Shown: positions 28,325 through 35,998, numbered from the stretch's first letter. The stretch is DNA of 42,537 nt from an uncultured Desulfobulbaceae bacterium (GCA_945787445.1 CALZHT010000020.1:1-42537); one strand, 5' to 3'. Translations and numbers: made by a program. Notes: generated by a model not told the origin, from the sequence alone.

Positions 28325-28684
28325 GCCCTAGTGCACCACATTTCGAATTCATTTTAGAAGAGAATAATGCCTTAGATAAAAAAAATGCGAGGGTGAAACT
28401 CAAGTAATTATTTACTTATATTACCATTATCAGTTCATAATAACAACAACTGTCAATACATAATCCTGCATCCTATTTTTATTTGATTTATTGTAATTTC
28501 TTATTAAATAAAGAAATAGGTTAGGTAGGGGATGATATTGCGCTAGCTAAAAGAGATACTTTTAAAAAGCTAAAAAAACGGATTCTGATCCTTGTAATTG
28601 TAATGGTTTAAAACTGCAAGCATCTGTTAATTTGTAGTTTGCCTATTTCATCAAAAAAACATTGCGGAAATATGTACTATTATT

Positions 28685-28708
28685 TAATGTGACCACCTGG
28701 TCACATTA
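28685..28708. promoter_or_regulatory. Perfect 24-bp palindrome at the TetR gene start: probable operator
   Basis: Eleven-base arms TAATGTGACCA and TGGTCACATTA meet around a central CC. The last base is the A of the start codon. Size, symmetry and placement are those of an autoregulatory TetR-family operator. Occupancy would cover the ribosome-binding region and probably the transcription start. No second copy was found in the window. Confidence 0.75.
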
Positions 28709-29376
28709 TGGAATCATCACTGGCAATTGAAACAAATACATTCAGAAATTTACCTGAAGAGAAGAGACAGCGAATACTTGAGGAGGCGGTCAAGGAGTTT
28801 GCTGCAAACGGCTATCAGAAGGCAAGCTTAAACACGATTGTCAAGCGCCTCGGAATAGCAAAGGGGTCACTGTATCAATATTTTAACAATAAGCAGGCCC
28901 TCTTTCTTTTTATTTTTGATAGACTTACCCACCTTGTCAAGGATACGGTGAAGCGGAGTGTTTCCGAAGGAGAAGAAGCTGATTTTTTTGAACAAGTCAG
29001 AAGAATTATTGTTTCCGGTATCAATTTCATTGATTCATTTCCTGCTTATTATCAGATTTATTTAAAAGTCCTTTTTGAGCCTGATGTGCCCCAGCGTGAG
29101 GAACTAATAGCAAAGGTACGCCTATTTTCCATGGAGTTTTTCGCACCCCTCTGCAACGCCGCCCAGGGAAAAGGCCAAATACGCCACGACATACCAACAT
29201 CATTGGTTGTTTTTATCCTTGATGCGGTAGTTGATCGTTTTCTCCAGGGATATGCCAAGCCATACCTTGACGGCGGCCTTAATCTATCGGCCAAATCCCC
29301 TCAGGGCCTTGAAGAAGACGTGAATATGATTATTACGATTTTGCAGGATGGTTTATGCCTGCAAAAAGGAGAATAA
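28708..29376 (+). CDS. TetR-family transcriptional regulator heading the menaquinone operon
   Basis: A 222-aa DNA-binding regulator. The N-terminal TetR helix-turn-helix spans about residues 18-65: RQRILEEAVKEFAANGYQKAS, then the recognition part IVKRLGIAKGSLYQYFNNKQ. The rest is a helical ligand-binding domain without an obvious signature. The ATG at 28708 is the only good start, yet the ribosome site is masked within the palindrome at 28685-28708, which suggests tight self-repression. Its stop lies five bases before mqnE, and the seven downstream genes are nearly contiguous, so one transcript likely covers regulator and pathway. The ligand is unknown; a pathway intermediate, quinone or isoprenoid are possible. 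Confidence 0.92.
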   Translation: MESSLAIETNTFRNLPEEKRQRILEEAVKEFAANGYQKASLNTIVKRLGIAKGSLYQYFNNKQALFLFIFDRLTHLVKDTVKRSVSEGEEADFFEQVRRIIVSGINFIDSFPAYYQIYLKVLFEPDVPQREELIAKVRLFSMEFFAPLCNAAQGKGQIRHDIPTSLVVFILDAVVDRFLQGYAKPYLDGGLNLSAKSPQGLEEDVNMIITILQDGLCLQKGE

Positions 29377-29380
29377 GGAT

Positions 29381-30475
29381 ATGGACACCATGGTGGTTCA
29401 GGCAGGTTTGGGAGACATCCTTGAAAAAGTGGGGGGAGGTGAACGCCTTACAAAGGAGGATGCTTTCCGCCTCTTTGCGAGTCCAGATATCCTGTCCGTT
29501 GGGTACCTGGCCAATATTGTCAGGGAAAGATTGAACGGTAACAGGGCCTATTTTATTTATAACCAGCACATCAACTACTCAAACATTTGTACAAACCTTT
29601 GTAAATTTTGCGCATTCGGCAAAGAGAAGTCATCTGTACTGGCCTATGAAATGTCTGTGGATGAAGTTATTGAAAAGGTTAAGGAGAGGGATAGCGAGCC
29701 CATTTCTGAAATCCATATGGTGGGCGGCATACATCCTGATCTGCCATATTCCTATTACAGAGGTTTGCTGGAGGGCATCAAAACTGTTCGGCCGGATATT
29801 CATATCCAAGCCTTTACCTGTGTCGAAATTGCTCATTTGGCTGAGATTTCCGACCAATCTGTTGAAGAGACACTTGGAGATCTTCAGGCTGCAGGGCTGG
29901 ACTCGATTCCAGGTGGAGGAGCTGAAGTATTTAGCCCGAGAATCCGTAAGATAACCTGCGAAAAAAAGCTTTCGGGCGAGGGGTGGCTTGAGGTAGCCAA
30001 GACGGCGCACCGGCTCGGTATAAAAAGCAATGCCACCATGCTTTATGGTCATATTGAAACCATTGAGGAGCGCATTGAGCATCTGGATATGCTCCGTTCA
30101 GCCCAGGATGAGACAAAGGGTTTCCTGACCTTTATCCCCCTGGCATTTCATCCCAAAAACACCGAAATGTCAGAGCTGTCCAGGACCAGCGGCATGGAAG
30201 ATCTGAAAAACATAGCTGTGGCACGATGTTTTTTGGATAACTTTCCACATATAAAAGCCTATTGGATAATGATTGGCCCCAAGCTATCCCAGGTAGCTCT
30301 TTCTTTTGGAGCGGATGATGTGGATGGCACGGTTAAGGAGGAGATTATCACCCATATGGCAGGTGCTGATACAGACCAGGCCATGTCTCGTGACCAACTG
30401 GTGCGCATTATAAAAGAGGCTGGGAGGATTCCGGTTGAGAGAGATACGCTTTATAACGAAATTTCAGTATATTAG
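29381..30475 (+). CDS. mqnE: Aminofutalosine synthase (radical SAM)
   Basis: Radical SAM enzyme of the futalosine route: it joins adenosyl radical to the enolpyruvyl benzoate made by MqnA, giving aminodeoxyfutalosine. From the ATG at 29381 (364 aa) the cluster motif CX3CX2C is at Cys70, Cys74, Cys77 (ICTNLCKFCAFG). MqnE-type blocks follow: EIHMVGGIHPDLPYSYY, IQAFTCVEI, and DSIPGGGAEVFSPRIR. The frame continues upstream to 29348, inside the TetR gene. AAGGAG (29366-29371), nine bases before ATG 29381, fixes the start. The distinct IHMVGG block separates it from MqnC, the next gene. Confidence 0.95.
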   Translation: MDTMVVQAGLGDILEKVGGGERLTKEDAFRLFASPDILSVGYLANIVRERLNGNRAYFIYNQHINYSNICTNLCKFCAFGKEKSSVLAYEMSVDEVIEKVKERDSEPISEIHMVGGIHPDLPYSYYRGLLEGIKTVRPDIHIQAFTCVEIAHLAEISDQSVEETLGDLQAAGLDSIPGGGAEVFSPRIRKITCEKKLSGEGWLEVAKTAHRLGIKSNATMLYGHIETIEERIEHLDMLRSAQDETKGFLTFIPLAFHPKNTEMSELSRTSGMEDLKNIAVARCFLDNFPHIKAYWIMIGPKLSQVALSFGADDVDGTVKEEIITHMAGADTDQAMSRDQLVRIIKEAGRIPVERDTLYNEISVY

Positions 30476-30506
30476 ATTAACTAATTAACAATAAATATTA
30501 AGATGT

Positions 30507-31586
30507 GTGGTGGTGAATACGGTGCTTAATTCACTCTGTGATAAGGTGTTGGCAGGAGAACGGCTTACTATTAACGAAGCAGAGATGTTGGCAGAAAACG
30601 CTGATTTATATCAGCTAGGATTCCTGGCGAATAGCATCAGGAAACGTTTGCATCCTGACCCAGTTGTCACCTATGTGATAGACCGAAATATAAATTATAC
30701 GGACATCTGCATATCCGCTTGTAAGTTCTGCGCCTTTTTCAAATCACCTGAGGATAAAAATGGTTCGATTATCTCCTTTGCAGAGCTTGGTAAGAAAATC
30801 GAAGAAACGCAAAAATTAAAAGGTACTCAAATTCTTCTCCAAGGCGGACTTCATCCAGATAAGCCTTTGGAATTTTATGAAGAGATGCTCCTCTTTATTA
30901 AGGGTTATGGTATTCATGTCCATGGTTTTTCACCCCCGGAAATTCACCATTTTTCTGATCTGTCCGGACTTTCTGTCCAGGAAGTGCTTGCCCGACTCGG
31001 AAAGGCAGGGCTCAATTCCATTCCGGGCGGCGGAGCGGAAATTCTTTCTGACCGAGTCCGTGGTGCCATATCACCCCGAAAATGTAGCGCAGATCAGTGG
31101 ATCAGCGTAATGGAAGAGGCGCATAAAATGGGAATGCGCACAACCGCCACCATGATGTTCGGCCATATCGAGACCATGGAAGAGCGGCTGGAACATTTAT
31201 CCAGAATACGGGATCTTCAGGATCGTACAGGGGGCTTTACCGCATTTATTCCATGGCCGTTTCAACCGTTAAACACTGCTCTAAATCATATTCCTGCAAC
31301 CACGGGTATGGCCTACTTGAAGATGCTGGCGTTTTCCCGGATTTTTCTAGACAACGTTCCCAATATTCAAGCTTCCTGGGTGACCCAGGGGCCGAAAATC
31401 GCCCAGCTCTCTCTCTTTTTCGGCGCCAATGATTTTGGCAGCACCATGATTGAGGAAAATGTTGTAGCAGCCGCAGGGGTGAGCTTTCGACTCTCGGAAA
31501 AGGAAATTCGCAAACTGGTCACTGGGGCAGGATTTGAGCCCCGTCAGCGCAGGATGGATTATAGCTTGGTTGATGAGGCGGCGTAA
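30507..31586 (+). CDS. mqnC: Cyclic dehypoxanthinyl futalosine synthase (radical SAM)
   Basis: The second radical SAM enzyme of the route; it cyclises dehypoxanthinyl futalosine. The 359-aa product has CX3CX2C at Cys68, Cys72, Cys75 (ICISACKFCAFF), then ILLQGGLHPDKPLEFYEE, the MqnC-type version of the block that reads IHMVGGIHP in MqnE. SIPGGGAEILSDRVR and FGHIETMEERLEHLSRIR follow. It begins 31 bases after mqnE. The exact start is uncertain: GTG at 30507, 30510 and 30513 are possible, as is GTG 30522 with a GGTGG-like site upstream. The two enzymes are paralogues of similar length. Confidence 0.94.
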   Translation: MVVNTVLNSLCDKVLAGERLTINEAEMLAENADLYQLGFLANSIRKRLHPDPVVTYVIDRNINYTDICISACKFCAFFKSPEDKNGSIISFAELGKKIEETQKLKGTQILLQGGLHPDKPLEFYEEMLLFIKGYGIHVHGFSPPEIHHFSDLSGLSVQEVLARLGKAGLNSIPGGGAEILSDRVRGAISPRKCSADQWISVMEEAHKMGMRTTATMMFGHIETMEERLEHLSRIRDLQDRTGGFTAFIPWPFQPLNTALNHIPATTGMAYLKMLAFSRIFLDNVPNIQASWVTQGPKIAQLSLFFGANDFGSTMIEENVVAAAGVSFRLSEKEIRKLVTGAGFEPRQRRMDYSLVDEAA

Positions 31587-31589
31587 AAC

Positions 31590-32801
31590 GTGAGTACTAT
31601 GTTGCACCGGGCACGCTGGATTGTCCCCATGGAACCGGGTTTGCCGGAACTCATTGAGGATGGGGGGATTCTTTGTAATGACAAAAAGGTAATAAAGGTA
31701 GGATTTTTCAAGGACTTACAACGAGAAAACGCTTTAATCACTCACCATGAGGGAATAATTGTTCCTGCCTTGATCAACGCCCACATCCATTTGGAACTTT
31801 CACATCTGGCTGTTCAACAAAGCGAAGATACCAACCTTTGGCAACCTGGTGATATAGCTTCGTGGATAGGTTCTCTTTTAGCGAAGCGCCAGGAAATAAC
31901 TGATCCGGACAATGCCAGGAAGAACAGCCAAAAGGCGTTGGATTTCATGTATCAGCAGGGGTGCGCCGTGGCACTTGATATTGGCAACCAGCTCGAATCT
32001 AAATACATTGGCGAAAGCCATACCATGGATGTGCATTTTTTTCTGGAGATTTTAGGCTTATCAAGATTCGCCCAAGATAAAGCATTTGCGGTCCTGGCAA
32101 AACTTCCAGATAGCATGAATGCTACGGCCCATGCCTTGTATTCCACCGGCACTGATATGCTAAAAGCTTTAAAAAAACGATGTGTGAAGACAGATACTGT
32201 GTTTCCCTTACATGTGGCCGAGTCACACGATGAAATTACTTTTTTACAAAATGGTACAGGAAAAATACGGGAACTCCTTGAACAAAGAGACGCTTGGGAC
32301 GGTACTTTCGCTCCACCGGGAACCGGTGCGGTTCACTATCTTGAAAATCTCGGCCTCTTGGATGAAAAAACCCTCTGTGTGCATGCAGTTCATGTGAATT
32401 CTGATGAGATCAGCATATTGGCAAAAAAACGTGCCAAGGTATGCCTATGCCCCGGGAGCAATCGGTATTTGGGCATCGGTAAAGCGCCTGTTGAAGAATA
32501 TTTGAATAATGAGATGCTGCCGGCATTGGGGACGGACAGTGCAGCAAGTAATCCATCTTTAAGTATCTGGCGTGAAATGCGCTTGTTGTTGGAGGATCAT
32601 CCAGAGGTGGACCCTGTACATATTTTTGCCATGGCAACACAGGGAGGGGCTCAGGCGTTAGGCCTGGAGAAGGAAATGGGGGGACTTGGGCCGGGAAAGA
32701 AAGCTGTCATGTTATTGATCAGTTGTCCGGAGATACCAGGGAAAGATATTTTTCAGTATCTGGTGAATGCTGGAGATGCGGAACCTATTAAGTGGCTTTG
32801 A
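31590..32801 (+). CDS. mqnX: Amidohydrolase, probable 6-aminodeoxyfutalosine deaminase
   Basis: The 403-aa product belongs to the amidohydrolase superfamily and, by context, likely deaminates aminodeoxyfutalosine to futalosine, the alternative entry to hydrolysis by MqnB. Metal-site residues are visible: HIH (65-67) in INAHIHLEL, His208 in PLHVAESHDE, His265 in CVHAVHVN, and Asp316 in LGTDSAAS. The GTG at 31590 is three bases after the mqnC stop; an ATG at 31599 is an alternative. It sits between mqnC and mqnA. The family is certain; the substrate is inferred from the operon, because related amidohydrolases act on many purine and pterin substrates. Confidence 0.82.
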   Translation: MSTMLHRARWIVPMEPGLPELIEDGGILCNDKKVIKVGFFKDLQRENALITHHEGIIVPALINAHIHLELSHLAVQQSEDTNLWQPGDIASWIGSLLAKRQEITDPDNARKNSQKALDFMYQQGCAVALDIGNQLESKYIGESHTMDVHFFLEILGLSRFAQDKAFAVLAKLPDSMNATAHALYSTGTDMLKALKKRCVKTDTVFPLHVAESHDEITFLQNGTGKIRELLEQRDAWDGTFAPPGTGAVHYLENLGLLDEKTLCVHAVHVNSDEISILAKKRAKVCLCPGSNRYLGIGKAPVEEYLNNEMLPALGTDSAASNPSLSIWREMRLLLEDHPEVDPVHIFAMATQGGAQALGLEKEMGGLGPGKKAVMLLISCPEIPGKDIFQYLVNAGDAEPIKWL

Positions 32802-32807
32802 GAATCG

Positions 32808-33662
32808 ATGCGTATTTCCGAAACAGTACATAGCAATACCCGGGCCCGCATCGGCATGGTCAATTTTATTAACACGGCGCCTCTATATGAAACGTGGAAC
32901 ACTACTGCCCAGAAAGAGGAATGGCAGGTTACGGAAGCAGCACCTACGGTTCTCAATCGCTTGATATATGAAAACAAGCTCGACCTGGGATTCATTTCGT
33001 CCCACGAATATGCTGCCCATCCAAATCTTTACAAGATATTAAGCGATCTTTCCATCAGTTCTTCCGGGCCTGTAGGCAGTGTGTTTCTTTTTTCAACCAA
33101 AAAGCCGGAAGAACTGTCCAATGGACTCGTTTTATTGAGTGACCAGTCCCAGACGTCGGTCAGTCTTGTACAGATAATCCTTGAGGAGTTCTATAAGATT
33201 AGGCCCAGATATGCATCAGGTGTATATCTTGATTATGCAGAAGAAGAGGTCCCTGCCGCGCTTTTAGCCATTGGCGATGAAGCATTGCGTTTGAAGGATC
33301 AGGGAGTTTTCCCTTTTAGTATTGATCTTGGGGAGATATGGCATCAGTTCACCGGTTTGCCCTTTGTGTTCGCGCTCTGGGCCGTACGGGAAGATTTTTG
33401 TGCGCAAGACCCCGATGCTGTGGTGGAGATCCACCAGGAACTGCTGCGCTGTGTGTGGGAAGGAAAAAACAACCTGGCCGCTATCTGTGAAAAAGTTGCG
33501 CCCAGGATCCCGATATCAGTGGAGAAATGCTGCAACTACCTCCAGGGCATTGAATATGACTTAGGAGGGGAAAAGCAGAGAGGCCTCAGACGATTTTTTG
33601 AATATCTCATACAAAGAGGGGAGGCTGATGCAACGGCACTTCCTTTGAAGATTTGCGGATAA
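32808..33662 (+). CDS. mqnA: Chorismate dehydratase
   Basis: The first committed enzyme: it converts chorismate to 3-enolpyruvylbenzoate. The 284-aa product has the MqnA/MqnD-type periplasmic-binding-protein-like fold: RARIGMVNFINTAPLYETW at the N-terminus, then a LDLGFISSHEYAAHPNLYKILSD segment, SGPVGSVFLFS, and LDLGEIWHQFTGLPFVFALWAVR. The early VNFINTAPL and the SSGPVGSV block favour MqnA over the similarly folded MqnD. It starts six bases after mqnX and is followed after eight bases by the methyltransferase. MqnD itself is not in the window. Confidence 0.92.
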   Translation: MRISETVHSNTRARIGMVNFINTAPLYETWNTTAQKEEWQVTEAAPTVLNRLIYENKLDLGFISSHEYAAHPNLYKILSDLSISSSGPVGSVFLFSTKKPEELSNGLVLLSDQSQTSVSLVQIILEEFYKIRPRYASGVYLDYAEEEVPAALLAIGDEALRLKDQGVFPFSIDLGEIWHQFTGLPFVFALWAVREDFCAQDPDAVVEIHQELLRCVWEGKNNLAAICEKVAPRIPISVEKCCNYLQGIEYDLGGEKQRGLRRFFEYLIQRGEADATALPLKICG

Positions 33663-33670
33663 AGTAACTT

Positions 33671-34378
33671 ATGCGAAGCCCGGAAGATAAAAAGACCTTT
33701 GTAAAAGCAAAGTTTTCTTCAATAAGCAAGAAATATGACTTTCTTAACTCTGTTTTGAGTTTTCAGATAGACAAGTATTGGCGGTGGGTAACAACCCGTA
33801 TGTTGCGAGAATTTCCAGAAGGACCGGTGCTGGACCTTTGTGCCGGTACCTTGCCCCTTTCCCTGGAGCTTGCCAGGCAAGCGGCCAAGCGGCAAGTTGT
33901 GGCGATGGACTTCTGCGAGGATATGTTGCGGGCCGGTGTTGATAATTTACCAAGCGATGAACGTCTTCTCCGTATCTTTCCGGTATGCGGTGATGGAGAA
34001 GAACTGCCGGGCGCAAGCGGTTGTTTTTGGGGAATCACTGTGGCTTTTGGTGTCCGTAACCTGGCCCAGACCCAGAAGGGACTGAGGGAGATGTGGCGCG
34101 TATTGAAGCCCGGTGGCAAGTTGTTGATTCTTGAGTTTTCCAGGCCCCGGAATCCTGTTGTGAAGATTTTATATAATTTTTATCTGAATAGAGTTCTGCC
34201 AAAGGTTGCCGGGATGGTCTCAGGCGATAAGGAGGCTTATGAATATCTGGCAAGCTCCATTGCAGAATTTTATGAACCATCAGAACTTCTTGCAATGATG
34301 GAAAAAGCCGGTTTTTCAAAAACATATTTACGACCCTTAACCATGGGGATAGTTACTGTTTATGTGGGGATAAAATGA
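33671..34378 (+). CDS. ubiE: Demethylmenaquinone methyltransferase (UbiE/MenG family)
   Basis: The last step of menaquinone formation: SAM-dependent C-methylation of demethylmenaquinone. The 235-aa protein has the UbiE N-terminal blocks VKAKFSSISKKYDFLNSVLSF and the SAM motif VLDLCAGT (53-60). GITVAFGVRNLAQTQKGLREMWRVLKPGGKLLILEFS, with the UbiE signature pair, follows. It overlaps the next gene by four bases (ATGA at 34375-34378). Position behind mqnA and before the prenyl-transfer and decarboxylation genes supports a menaquinone rather than ubiquinone role. Confidence 0.94.
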   Translation: MRSPEDKKTFVKAKFSSISKKYDFLNSVLSFQIDKYWRWVTTRMLREFPEGPVLDLCAGTLPLSLELARQAAKRQVVAMDFCEDMLRAGVDNLPSDERLLRIFPVCGDGEELPGASGCFWGITVAFGVRNLAQTQKGLREMWRVLKPGGKLLILEFSRPRNPVVKILYNFYLNRVLPKVAGMVSGDKEAYEYLASSIAEFYEPSELLAMMEKAGFSKTYLRPLTMGIVTVYVGIK

Positions 34379-34935
34379 AAAAAAAGATAATCCTTGCTAT
34401 AACGGGTGCAAGCGGTAGTCTGTATTCGTGTGAATTCTTAAAAGTTTTGCAAGAGGTGGATGTTGAAGTTCATGCCATGATCTCAGATGCTGGTCGTAAG
34501 GTTTTGGGGCTGGAACTCGGCATAAAACCGGAAGAAATGGAAAACGTTACACGTTGGTATGATGTGCATGATTTTACCGCAGCCATGGCCAGCGGTTCCA
34601 GTCTTTTTCACGGTATGGTGGTGTTGCCCTGTTCCATGGGAACCCTGGCGGCAATTGCCAATGGTATTTCGGCTAATCTTATTCACCGGGCCGCGGATGT
34701 AACCTTGAAAGAACAGAGGCCACTCATTCTGGCAGTGCGTGAAACGCCATTAAACAGGACTCACTTGCACAATATGTTGAAAGCTCATGAAGCAGGAGCG
34801 ATTATCTGTCCACCCATGCCTTCTTTTTATCAAAAGCCCCGGGATCTTAAAGAAATGGCCAGGGCTTTTGCCGGGCGCCTTACGGAAATATTCGGCTTCC
34901 AGGTCGCCAGTTTGAAACGATGGGGCGATAAATAA
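34375..34935 (+). CDS. ubiX: Flavin prenyltransferase, UbiX-type (mqnM-like)
   Basis: Makes the prenylated FMN cofactor needed by UbiD-type decarboxylases. The 186-aa product shows LAITGASGSLYS (GASGS at 11-15), VVLPCSMGTLAAIANGISANLIHRAADVTLKEQRPLILAVRETPL and AICPPMPSFYQKP-like ends (IICPPMPSFYQK), all UbiX signatures. Its ATG overlaps the methyltransferase stop. In futalosine-pathway bacteria the UbiX homologue is called MqnM. The matching UbiD-type decarboxylase (MqnL) is not adjacent, so it must be elsewhere. Confidence 0.94.
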   Translation: MKKKIILAITGASGSLYSCEFLKVLQEVDVEVHAMISDAGRKVLGLELGIKPEEMENVTRWYDVHDFTAAMASGSSLFHGMVVLPCSMGTLAAIANGISANLIHRAADVTLKEQRPLILAVRETPLNRTHLHNMLKAHEAGAIICPPMPSFYQKPRDLKEMARAFAGRLTEIFGFQVASLKRWGDK

Positions 34936-34955
34936 TATTTTTTAAGGAAAACAGT

Positions 34956-35810
34956 ATGTTGAAAAAAATTACCATACTGCTTGAAATGATCAAGTTCGAA
35001 CACACTGTTTTTGCTCTGCCGTTCGCCTTGATGGGCGCTTTCCTGGCGCAAAGGGGAGTTCCTGATCCTGTGGTTTTTTGCTGGATAGTCTTGGCTATGG
35101 TTGGCGCTAGAACATGCGCCATGGGATTCAACCGCATCGTTGATCTTGAGTTTGACAGGAAAAATCCCCGTACCGTAAACCGCGCCCTAGCGGCAGGCAC
35201 GGTAAAATTGTGGGAAGCTTGGGCCATGGTGATTTTTGCCGCCATGTTGTTTTTTTTCGCCAGTTACAATTTGAATACACTCACCTTTATTCTCTCTCCT
35301 TTTGCCCTTGGTATGACCCTGCTTTATTCCCTCACTAAACGTTTCACCTGGCTGTGTCATGCAGTACTTGGCGTGGCCCTGGCATTTTCACCACTTGGTG
35401 GATATGTAGCGGTGAAAGGAGCATTTGCCGGATATCCATTTGTATTATCACTTGGAGTAATATTTTGGGTTGCTGGTTTTGATACAATATATGCCTGCCT
35501 GGATGCAGATTTTGATCGGGATGAGGGGTTGTTTTCATTGCCGGCTCGGTTCGGCAGACGAAACGCCTTCATGATCGCTGTTTTTCTGCATCTCCTTGCC
35601 TTTGCAATGTTCATCGCCACCGGGGTCTTGGCTAAGCTTAATTATTTTTATTACTTAGGCATATTTTTTACAGGATTTGCCCTGCTTTATCAGCATATCG
35701 TGTTGAATCCAAGGGATCTTTCGCGAATCCGTCTTTCTTTTTTCACCATGAACGGGCTTATCAGCCTGACTCTTTTTGTGGCAACTTGGCTTGCCTTGGT
35801 TATTTCCTGA
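34956..35810 (+). CDS. ubiA: UbiA-family prenyltransferase (mqnP-like)
   Basis: Attaches the isoprenoid tail to the aromatic acid of the pathway, in the inner membrane. The 284-aa protein has about eight membrane helices and the two Asp-rich Mg-diphosphate motifs: NRIVDLEFDRKNPRT (59-73) and YACLDADFDRDEG (179-191). By context it is the MqnP-type enzyme working on the futalosine-derived naphthoate. It is the last gene of the operon. Its stop TGA (35808-35810) lies within the left end of the inverted-repeat element at 35806-35998, so its last codon is next to foreign sequence. Confidence 0.93.
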   Translation: MLKKITILLEMIKFEHTVFALPFALMGAFLAQRGVPDPVVFCWIVLAMVGARTCAMGFNRIVDLEFDRKNPRTVNRALAAGTVKLWEAWAMVIFAAMLFFFASYNLNTLTFILSPFALGMTLLYSLTKRFTWLCHAVLGVALAFSPLGGYVAVKGAFAGYPFVLSLGVIFWVAGFDTIYACLDADFDRDEGLFSLPARFGRRNAFMIAVFLHLLAFAMFIATGVLAKLNYFYYLGIFFTGFALLYQHIVLNPRDLSRIRLSFFTMNGLISLTLFVATWLALVIS

Positions 35811-35998
35811 ATCCGTGAGCGTTCGTCAGCGGCCCGGCACCCCAAGCACTTCCTTCAGGGTGTCTGCTTCGGAGTTTCGCAGGCTTGCGTGCCTGTCTGT
35901 ACCTCTTTGATATAAAACAAGAAAAATCGAATTCGTTCCCTTCTCGTTTATGCGCTTTAAGGTGATTCGGCCCACTGACAAACGTTCACGGATTCAGG
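35806..35998. repeat. Inverted-repeat element between ubiA and pgl
   Basis: A 193-bp segment with inverted ends of 23 bp (35807-35829 against 35975-35997, two mismatches), core CTGAATCCGTGA and GTCAG. A looser match extends inward over about five more bases. Ends are unrelated to the MITE-like repeats at 10013 and 17641. It has no ORF. Flanks TATTT (35801-35805) and TGTTT (35999-36003) could be a decayed target duplication. It may also serve as a terminator between the convergent genes. Confidence 0.7.

Follow-up and report, generated by a model that had tools for sequence, protein, structure and literature searches.

A TetR-family protein as the probable dedicated repressor of a futalosine menaquinone operon in Desulfobacterota

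Menaquinone (vitamin K2) is a respiratory quinone whose synthesis is usually studied one enzyme at a time. In the window, the whole 42.5-kb stretch of DNA analysed here, a gene for a TetR-family regulator opens a run of menaquinone genes and a palindrome reaches its start codon. The locus therefore raises the question of whether this synthesis is under a regulator of its own, in which direction the control would act, and to which signal it might respond. The preliminary description proposed a dedicated repressor and held that menaquinone genes are generally treated as constitutive. The latter was too strong, as SinR is linked to menaquinone synthesis in Bacillus subtilis in the accessible text of PMC8183045. 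A search of the open literature (subscription papers and RegPrecise lay outside it) found neither a dedicated menaquinone TetR nor a transcriptional regulator of the futalosine route, and the regulon survey of Proteobacteria in PMC5343134 left quinones unmentioned. The features of the locus are as follows.

28662..28667, plus strand: −35-like element TTGCGG, with TTGC at the matching offset in orthologous promoters
28685..28708, no strand: predicted operator TAATGTGACCA CC TGGTCACATTA, core TGACC-N4-GGTCA, 11-bp arms and 2-nt centre
28685..28690, plus strand: −10-like element TAATGT, 17 bp after the −35-like element, overlapping the left edge of the operator
28708..29376, plus strand: TetR-family regulator, proposed repressor of the menaquinone operon (PF00440 54.1 bits, PF21256 28.1 bits)
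29381..30475, plus strand: mqnE, aminofutalosine synthase (TIGR03700 498.5 bits, cut-off 434.55)
30507..31586, plus strand: mqnC, dehypoxanthine futalosine cyclase (TIGR03699 477.8 bits, cut-off 428.1)
31590..32801, plus strand: amidohydrolase, probable aminofutalosine deaminase (PF01979; best NCBIfam model NF006269, 150 bits, below its cut-off of 320)
32808..33662, plus strand: mqnA, chorismate dehydratase (PF02621 191.5 bits)
33671..34378, plus strand: ubiE/menG methyltransferase (TIGR01934 223.4 bits, over the cut-off)
34375..34935, plus strand: ubiX flavin prenyltransferase (TIGR00421 220.1 bits, over the cut-off)
34956..35810, plus strand: ubiA-like or MqnP-type prenyltransferase (TIGR01475 300.9 bits, over the cut-off; MqnP models 224–291 bits, below theirs)

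Recomputed open reading frames and family models agreed with the gene run first described, TetR-mqnE-mqnC-amidohydrolase-mqnA-ubiE-ubiX-ubiA. With mqnE taken from the in-frame ATG at 29381, the gaps from the TetR gene onward were 4, 31, 3, 6, 8, −4, and 20. The remaining pathway genes of this genome lay outside the operon, a single UbiD at C1:25201 and a second PF02621 protein (MqnD) on contig C109, and the operator was absent from both of these loci. Directly after ubiA, the window holds a 189-bp MITE/REP-like element (35808-35996) with inverted terminal repeats of about 22 bp (TGAATCCGTGARCGTTYGTCAG); this terminal repeat showed 25 copies in the genome and none in the reversed control.

The regulator matched the TetR_N helix-turn-helix model in its N-terminal part well above the cut-off of 24, and exceeded the cut-off of 27 for PF21256, in keeping with a C-terminal ligand-binding domain. 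Its AlphaFold model (pLDDT 92.3) showed the all-helical TetR fold, and TetR chains of the PDB aligned to it with Z values of 15–19, the best being 3nrg_A (19.4). The nearest solved structures were 3nrg, FasR, FadR, and TM1030. Long hydrophobic ligands are bound by several of these structural neighbours; a quinone ligand for the modelled protein would be compatible with this, though it is not demonstrated by it.

The palindrome had been described as perfect over 24 bp and abutting the ATG. Its 11-bp arms are indeed perfect and it ends on the A of the TetR start codon, but the 2-nt centre is non-complementary, so that 22 of 24 positions pair. It was the sole inverted repeat of the window with arms of at least 11 and a spacer of at most 8, and its core occurred once in the whole genome at zero mismatch. 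Regulon members of this genome were sought by pattern search. Other near-palindromes were rejected as members, being associated with an integrase gene and with NrfHA-type cytochrome genes. One of these places (C6:52777-52829, L006:1501-1553) carries two tandem palindromes, TTGTTACCA-NN-TGGTAACA, between divergent genes for a sensor kinase and multihaem NrfH/NrfA-type cytochromes, and is probably the operator of another regulator. The other (C198:4696-4715, L008:1501-1520) is a palindrome, ATGTGAACAAATGTTCACAT, just 5' of an integron-type integrase gene.

Promoter elements were conserved together with the operator. Among 29 orthologous promoters, 26 had TTGC at an offset of −26 or −25 relative to the operator 18-mer, and all 29 had T at −25 (shuffles gave at most 3 per column); the first two −10 positions were T in 28 and A in 27. 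As the operator overlaps both the −10 element and the expected transcription start, a bound dimer would block the polymerase, which argues for repression.

The preliminary description had named a palindrome not conserved beside a conserved TetR-mqnE pair as refuting its proposal. In 58 genomes of the order we found 29 TetR orthologues (42–60% identity), and mqnE was directly downstream in all 29. The operator consensus TRTGACCRSSTGGTCAYA was kept at 16–18 of 18 positions beside the TetR start in 30/30 loci, the window included. Shuffled upstream regions gave a mean of 10.9/18 and reached 16 in 0.02% of trials. The TGAC and GGTCA core positions were invariant across the 29 aligned promoters.

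mqnE itself was found in every sampled genome of the order that was at least 90% complete, and several families had it without TetR. The mqn operons of these TetR-less relatives showed a largely unchanged gene order, and none of 20 such operons contained the operator, the best chance match over 5–13 kb being 14/18 and most being 12–13. In TetR-less relatives of family f4 (L043-L048) mqnE follows an apparent sigma factor gene, judged from its C-terminal residues, in a different promoter context. The strict 18-mer TRTGACCRNNYGGTCAYA was present in 25 of the 58 genomes, with one site each, always at the TetR-mqnE promoter, and in none of the TetR-less genomes of this sample; its reversed control matched in 2 genomes. 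A loose 14-mer pattern was also searched in 243 genomes; among the matches listed, each genome had several background sites, and the pattern was unusable alone.

TetR mapped onto the mqnE tree with 4 changes, 1 of them forced by well-supported branches, and a test on independent pairs was therefore powerless. The contrast of 0/20 with 30/30 should thus not be read as 50 independent observations. TetR and operator appear to have been lost or gained together on this tree, with few independent events firmly resolved.

The comparison was extended to the phylum Desulfobacterota through named contigs together with 297 sampled genomes. When one TetR sequence was used to scan the whole collection, no relatives came up; a scan with the TetR alignment recovered them. 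The TetR-operator-mqnE unit was observed in records named Desulfurivibrio, Desulfobulbaceae, Desulfobacca, Syntrophobacterales, Syntrophales, and Desulfosoma. Among 109 loci with TetR adjacent to mqnE, a set that includes some genomes twice, TGACC-N4-GGTCA was exact nearby in 101, and the other 8 deviated slightly from it, in most cases by a single mismatch. The palindrome thus persisted with the gene pair in the phylum (109/109, exact or near-exact) as in the order. TetR relatives in Chloroflexi and Trueperaceae had no mqn genes nearby.

One locus (L105) was first taken as an operator-less exception, which was rejected since its operator is intact about 249 bp upstream. A repeat end similar to the TGAATCCGTGARCGTTYGTCAG element lies there between operator and TetR, and a repeat insertion has apparently pushed the two apart. 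In some relatives (L251:5984-6850, L198, and others) the mqn operon contains a gene for a PNP/MTAP-like nucleosidase or phosphorylase, which perhaps replaces mqnB.

In some relatives TetR is remote from mqnE; several of the examined cases have it ahead of mqnB and mqnD (identified in L207 by matches to TIGR03664 and PF02621). The TetR proteins of this remote set were only 34–41% identical to that of the window. The operator was missing at the TetR gene where it precedes mqnB/mqnD, and ten phylum genomes with a remote TetR showed one or two operator sites 56–186 bp upstream of mqnE, where a whole genome has a background of only about 1–5 core sites. In L235 the site lies inside the promoter, between a TTGACA −35 and a CATAAT −10 element. 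The distant family f29 carried two sites 43–57 bp apart upstream of mqnE, these duplicate copies standing 115–186 bp before the gene. In G298 TetR is beside mqnB/mqnD and the core site was not found, and in G526 the locus was interrupted by contig ends. We regard the remote-TetR result as the strongest evidence, because here the operator follows the target gene and not the regulator gene.

Dedicated TetR control of the menaquinone operon, as first proposed, is thus supported by the conserved operator, the co-occurrence with TetR, and the sites before remote mqnE genes. Comparison of sequences shows that the TetR-operator-mqnE unit is conserved, that TetR and operator strictly co-occur, that each genome has a single target, and that the operator stands ahead of mqnE even where tetR is remote. 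It is very probable that this TetR represses the futalosine operon, its own gene included, as a dedicated regulator. Binding of the protein to the operator, with local control, is very likely, and repression is the likely sign. A TetR dimer would bind TGACC-N4-GGTCA over the −10 element and the expected transcription start and would keep RNA polymerase from starting, so that the regulator gene and the seven biosynthetic genes would be shut off jointly. Binding would be released, or strengthened in the case of a co-repressor, by a small ligand that occupies the C-terminal domain.

The regulator and operator might be as proposed and the protein might yet activate, or do both, as certain TetR proteins of the LuxR/FasR type do. 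FasR and LuxR are among its structural neighbours and can act as activators, and the paired sites of family f29 could also suit such a role. However, a dimer over the −10 element and expected start in the order, or within the promoter spacer of L235, would exclude the polymerase, and we consider activation unlikely.

A narrower role, in which the operator autoregulates tetR alone and transcription from mqnE onward is independent, appears very unlikely. Sequence by itself leaves room for a further promoter, but the tetR-mqnE gap is only 4 bp in the window, the operator is at mqnE rather than tetR where the two genes are apart, and in L251 the sole operator site is between tetR and mqnE. The protein might also be a regulator with many targets or a role in stress (efflux, fatty acids) that is merely located here, since its helix-turn-helix resembles the AcrR/MtrR/FadR families and acyl-CoA regulators are among the PDB neighbours. 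This reading is highly improbable in view of the single strict site that each of 25 genomes has, in every case at the menaquinone operon, the NCBIfam equivalog scores, all far under their cut-offs, and the menaquinone gene partners of the closest relatives with a nearby operator. It is hardly credible that the palindrome is an RNA element (a start-codon hairpin or terminator) to which TetR is unrelated: in the window it directly adjoins the start codon, and a leader transcript might fold there, but its distance to the start varies widely among loci, the f29 duplicates lie far from mqnE, the L235 copy in the promoter spacer would stay untranscribed, 9 of 29 promoters have A-C at pair 1/16, and its presence tracks the TetR gene rather than the operon.

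For the dedicated repressor, the nature of its signal is suggested by six genomes without detectable mqnE. Three of them (G286, G249, and G378; 97–98% complete) had TetR, operators on both sides of TetR, and an operon of ubiD, ubiA, and an ABC transporter, with no mqnE match; their relative G450 has the same kind of operon, still containing mqnE and mqnC. The other three (G280 and G341, 98–99% complete, and G401, 73%) showed TetR, operator, a homologous transporter, menG, and menA. Their substrate-binding proteins were 31–36% identical to that of G286. The transporter loci are the following.

L248:5220-7651; L249; L250; L251:10811-13302; L252:4639-7092; L253:9096-11567: NMT1/SsuA-type ABC transporter sharing an operon with ubiD-ubiA or menG-menA, following TetR and operator

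Since TetR persists here without the early futalosine enzymes, it is unlikely to sense early products. We therefore put forward, as a hypothesis, that the signal is a naphthoate or quinone from late in the pathway and not one of the early futalosine intermediates, and that the transporter is a candidate importer of such menaquinone precursors. In the open literature we found no known importer of DHNA or of another menaquinone precursor. The wider picture, that a phylum-wide and hitherto undescribed menaquinone regulator adjusts synthesis as well as salvage in response to a late naphthoate or quinone, with the transporter importing naphthoate precursors in lineages without mqnE, is put forward tentatively and is somewhat more doubtful than probable. 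If true, species would exchange quinone precursors with one another. Import of such precursors bears on cross-feeding in anaerobic communities.

As the TetR-operator pairing is kept across the phylum, quinone synthesis in these bacteria appears to be actively controlled. A dedicated regulator with a defined 18-bp site, recognisable by sequence across Desulfobacterota, makes this a testable switch, and the same site predicts regulon members and points to a late-pathway signal.

Among known systems, the FadR/FasR-type TetR regulators share the fold, the C-terminal ligand domain, and pathway-specific control with the window protein. They differ from it in binding acyl-CoA and controlling fatty acid genes, and against the FadR model of Bacillus (NF053878) the window protein reached 45.3 bits versus a cut-off of 200, so full-length membership fails. 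The consensus of RutR from Escherichia coli, TTGACCANNTGGTCAA, is nearly identical to the window operator. RutR likewise has the TetR fold and a palindromic box of about 16 bp (PMC10891134). It differs in its target pathway, pyrimidine use, and binds uracil (PDB 4JYK); the score against TIGR03613 was 29.4 bits versus a cut-off of 368 and covered the DNA-binding part only, so full-length membership fails here as well. By operator architecture alone, the window locus is similar to that of SbtR, a homodimer of the TetR family from Thermus thermophilus, with a 14-bp operator, TGACC/GGTCA half-sites, a 4-bp centre, and promoter overlap; according to the available part of PMC4948773, TGACCCGCTGGTCA is among the sites bound by SbtR, and the protein reduces transcription in vitro. 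It has several sites per genome instead of one, and that part of the paper links neither its targets nor its ligand to menaquinone. The closest solved relative is 3nrg (Caur_2714 of Chloroflexus aurantiacus; E 1.4e-35, 3.3 Å over 205 residues, 28% identity), an uncharacterised TetR protein with a solved structure. Next to these systems, the regulator of the window would be ordinary in kind, a pathway-specific local repressor of the TetR type, but new in its target and unusually well supported by comparison.
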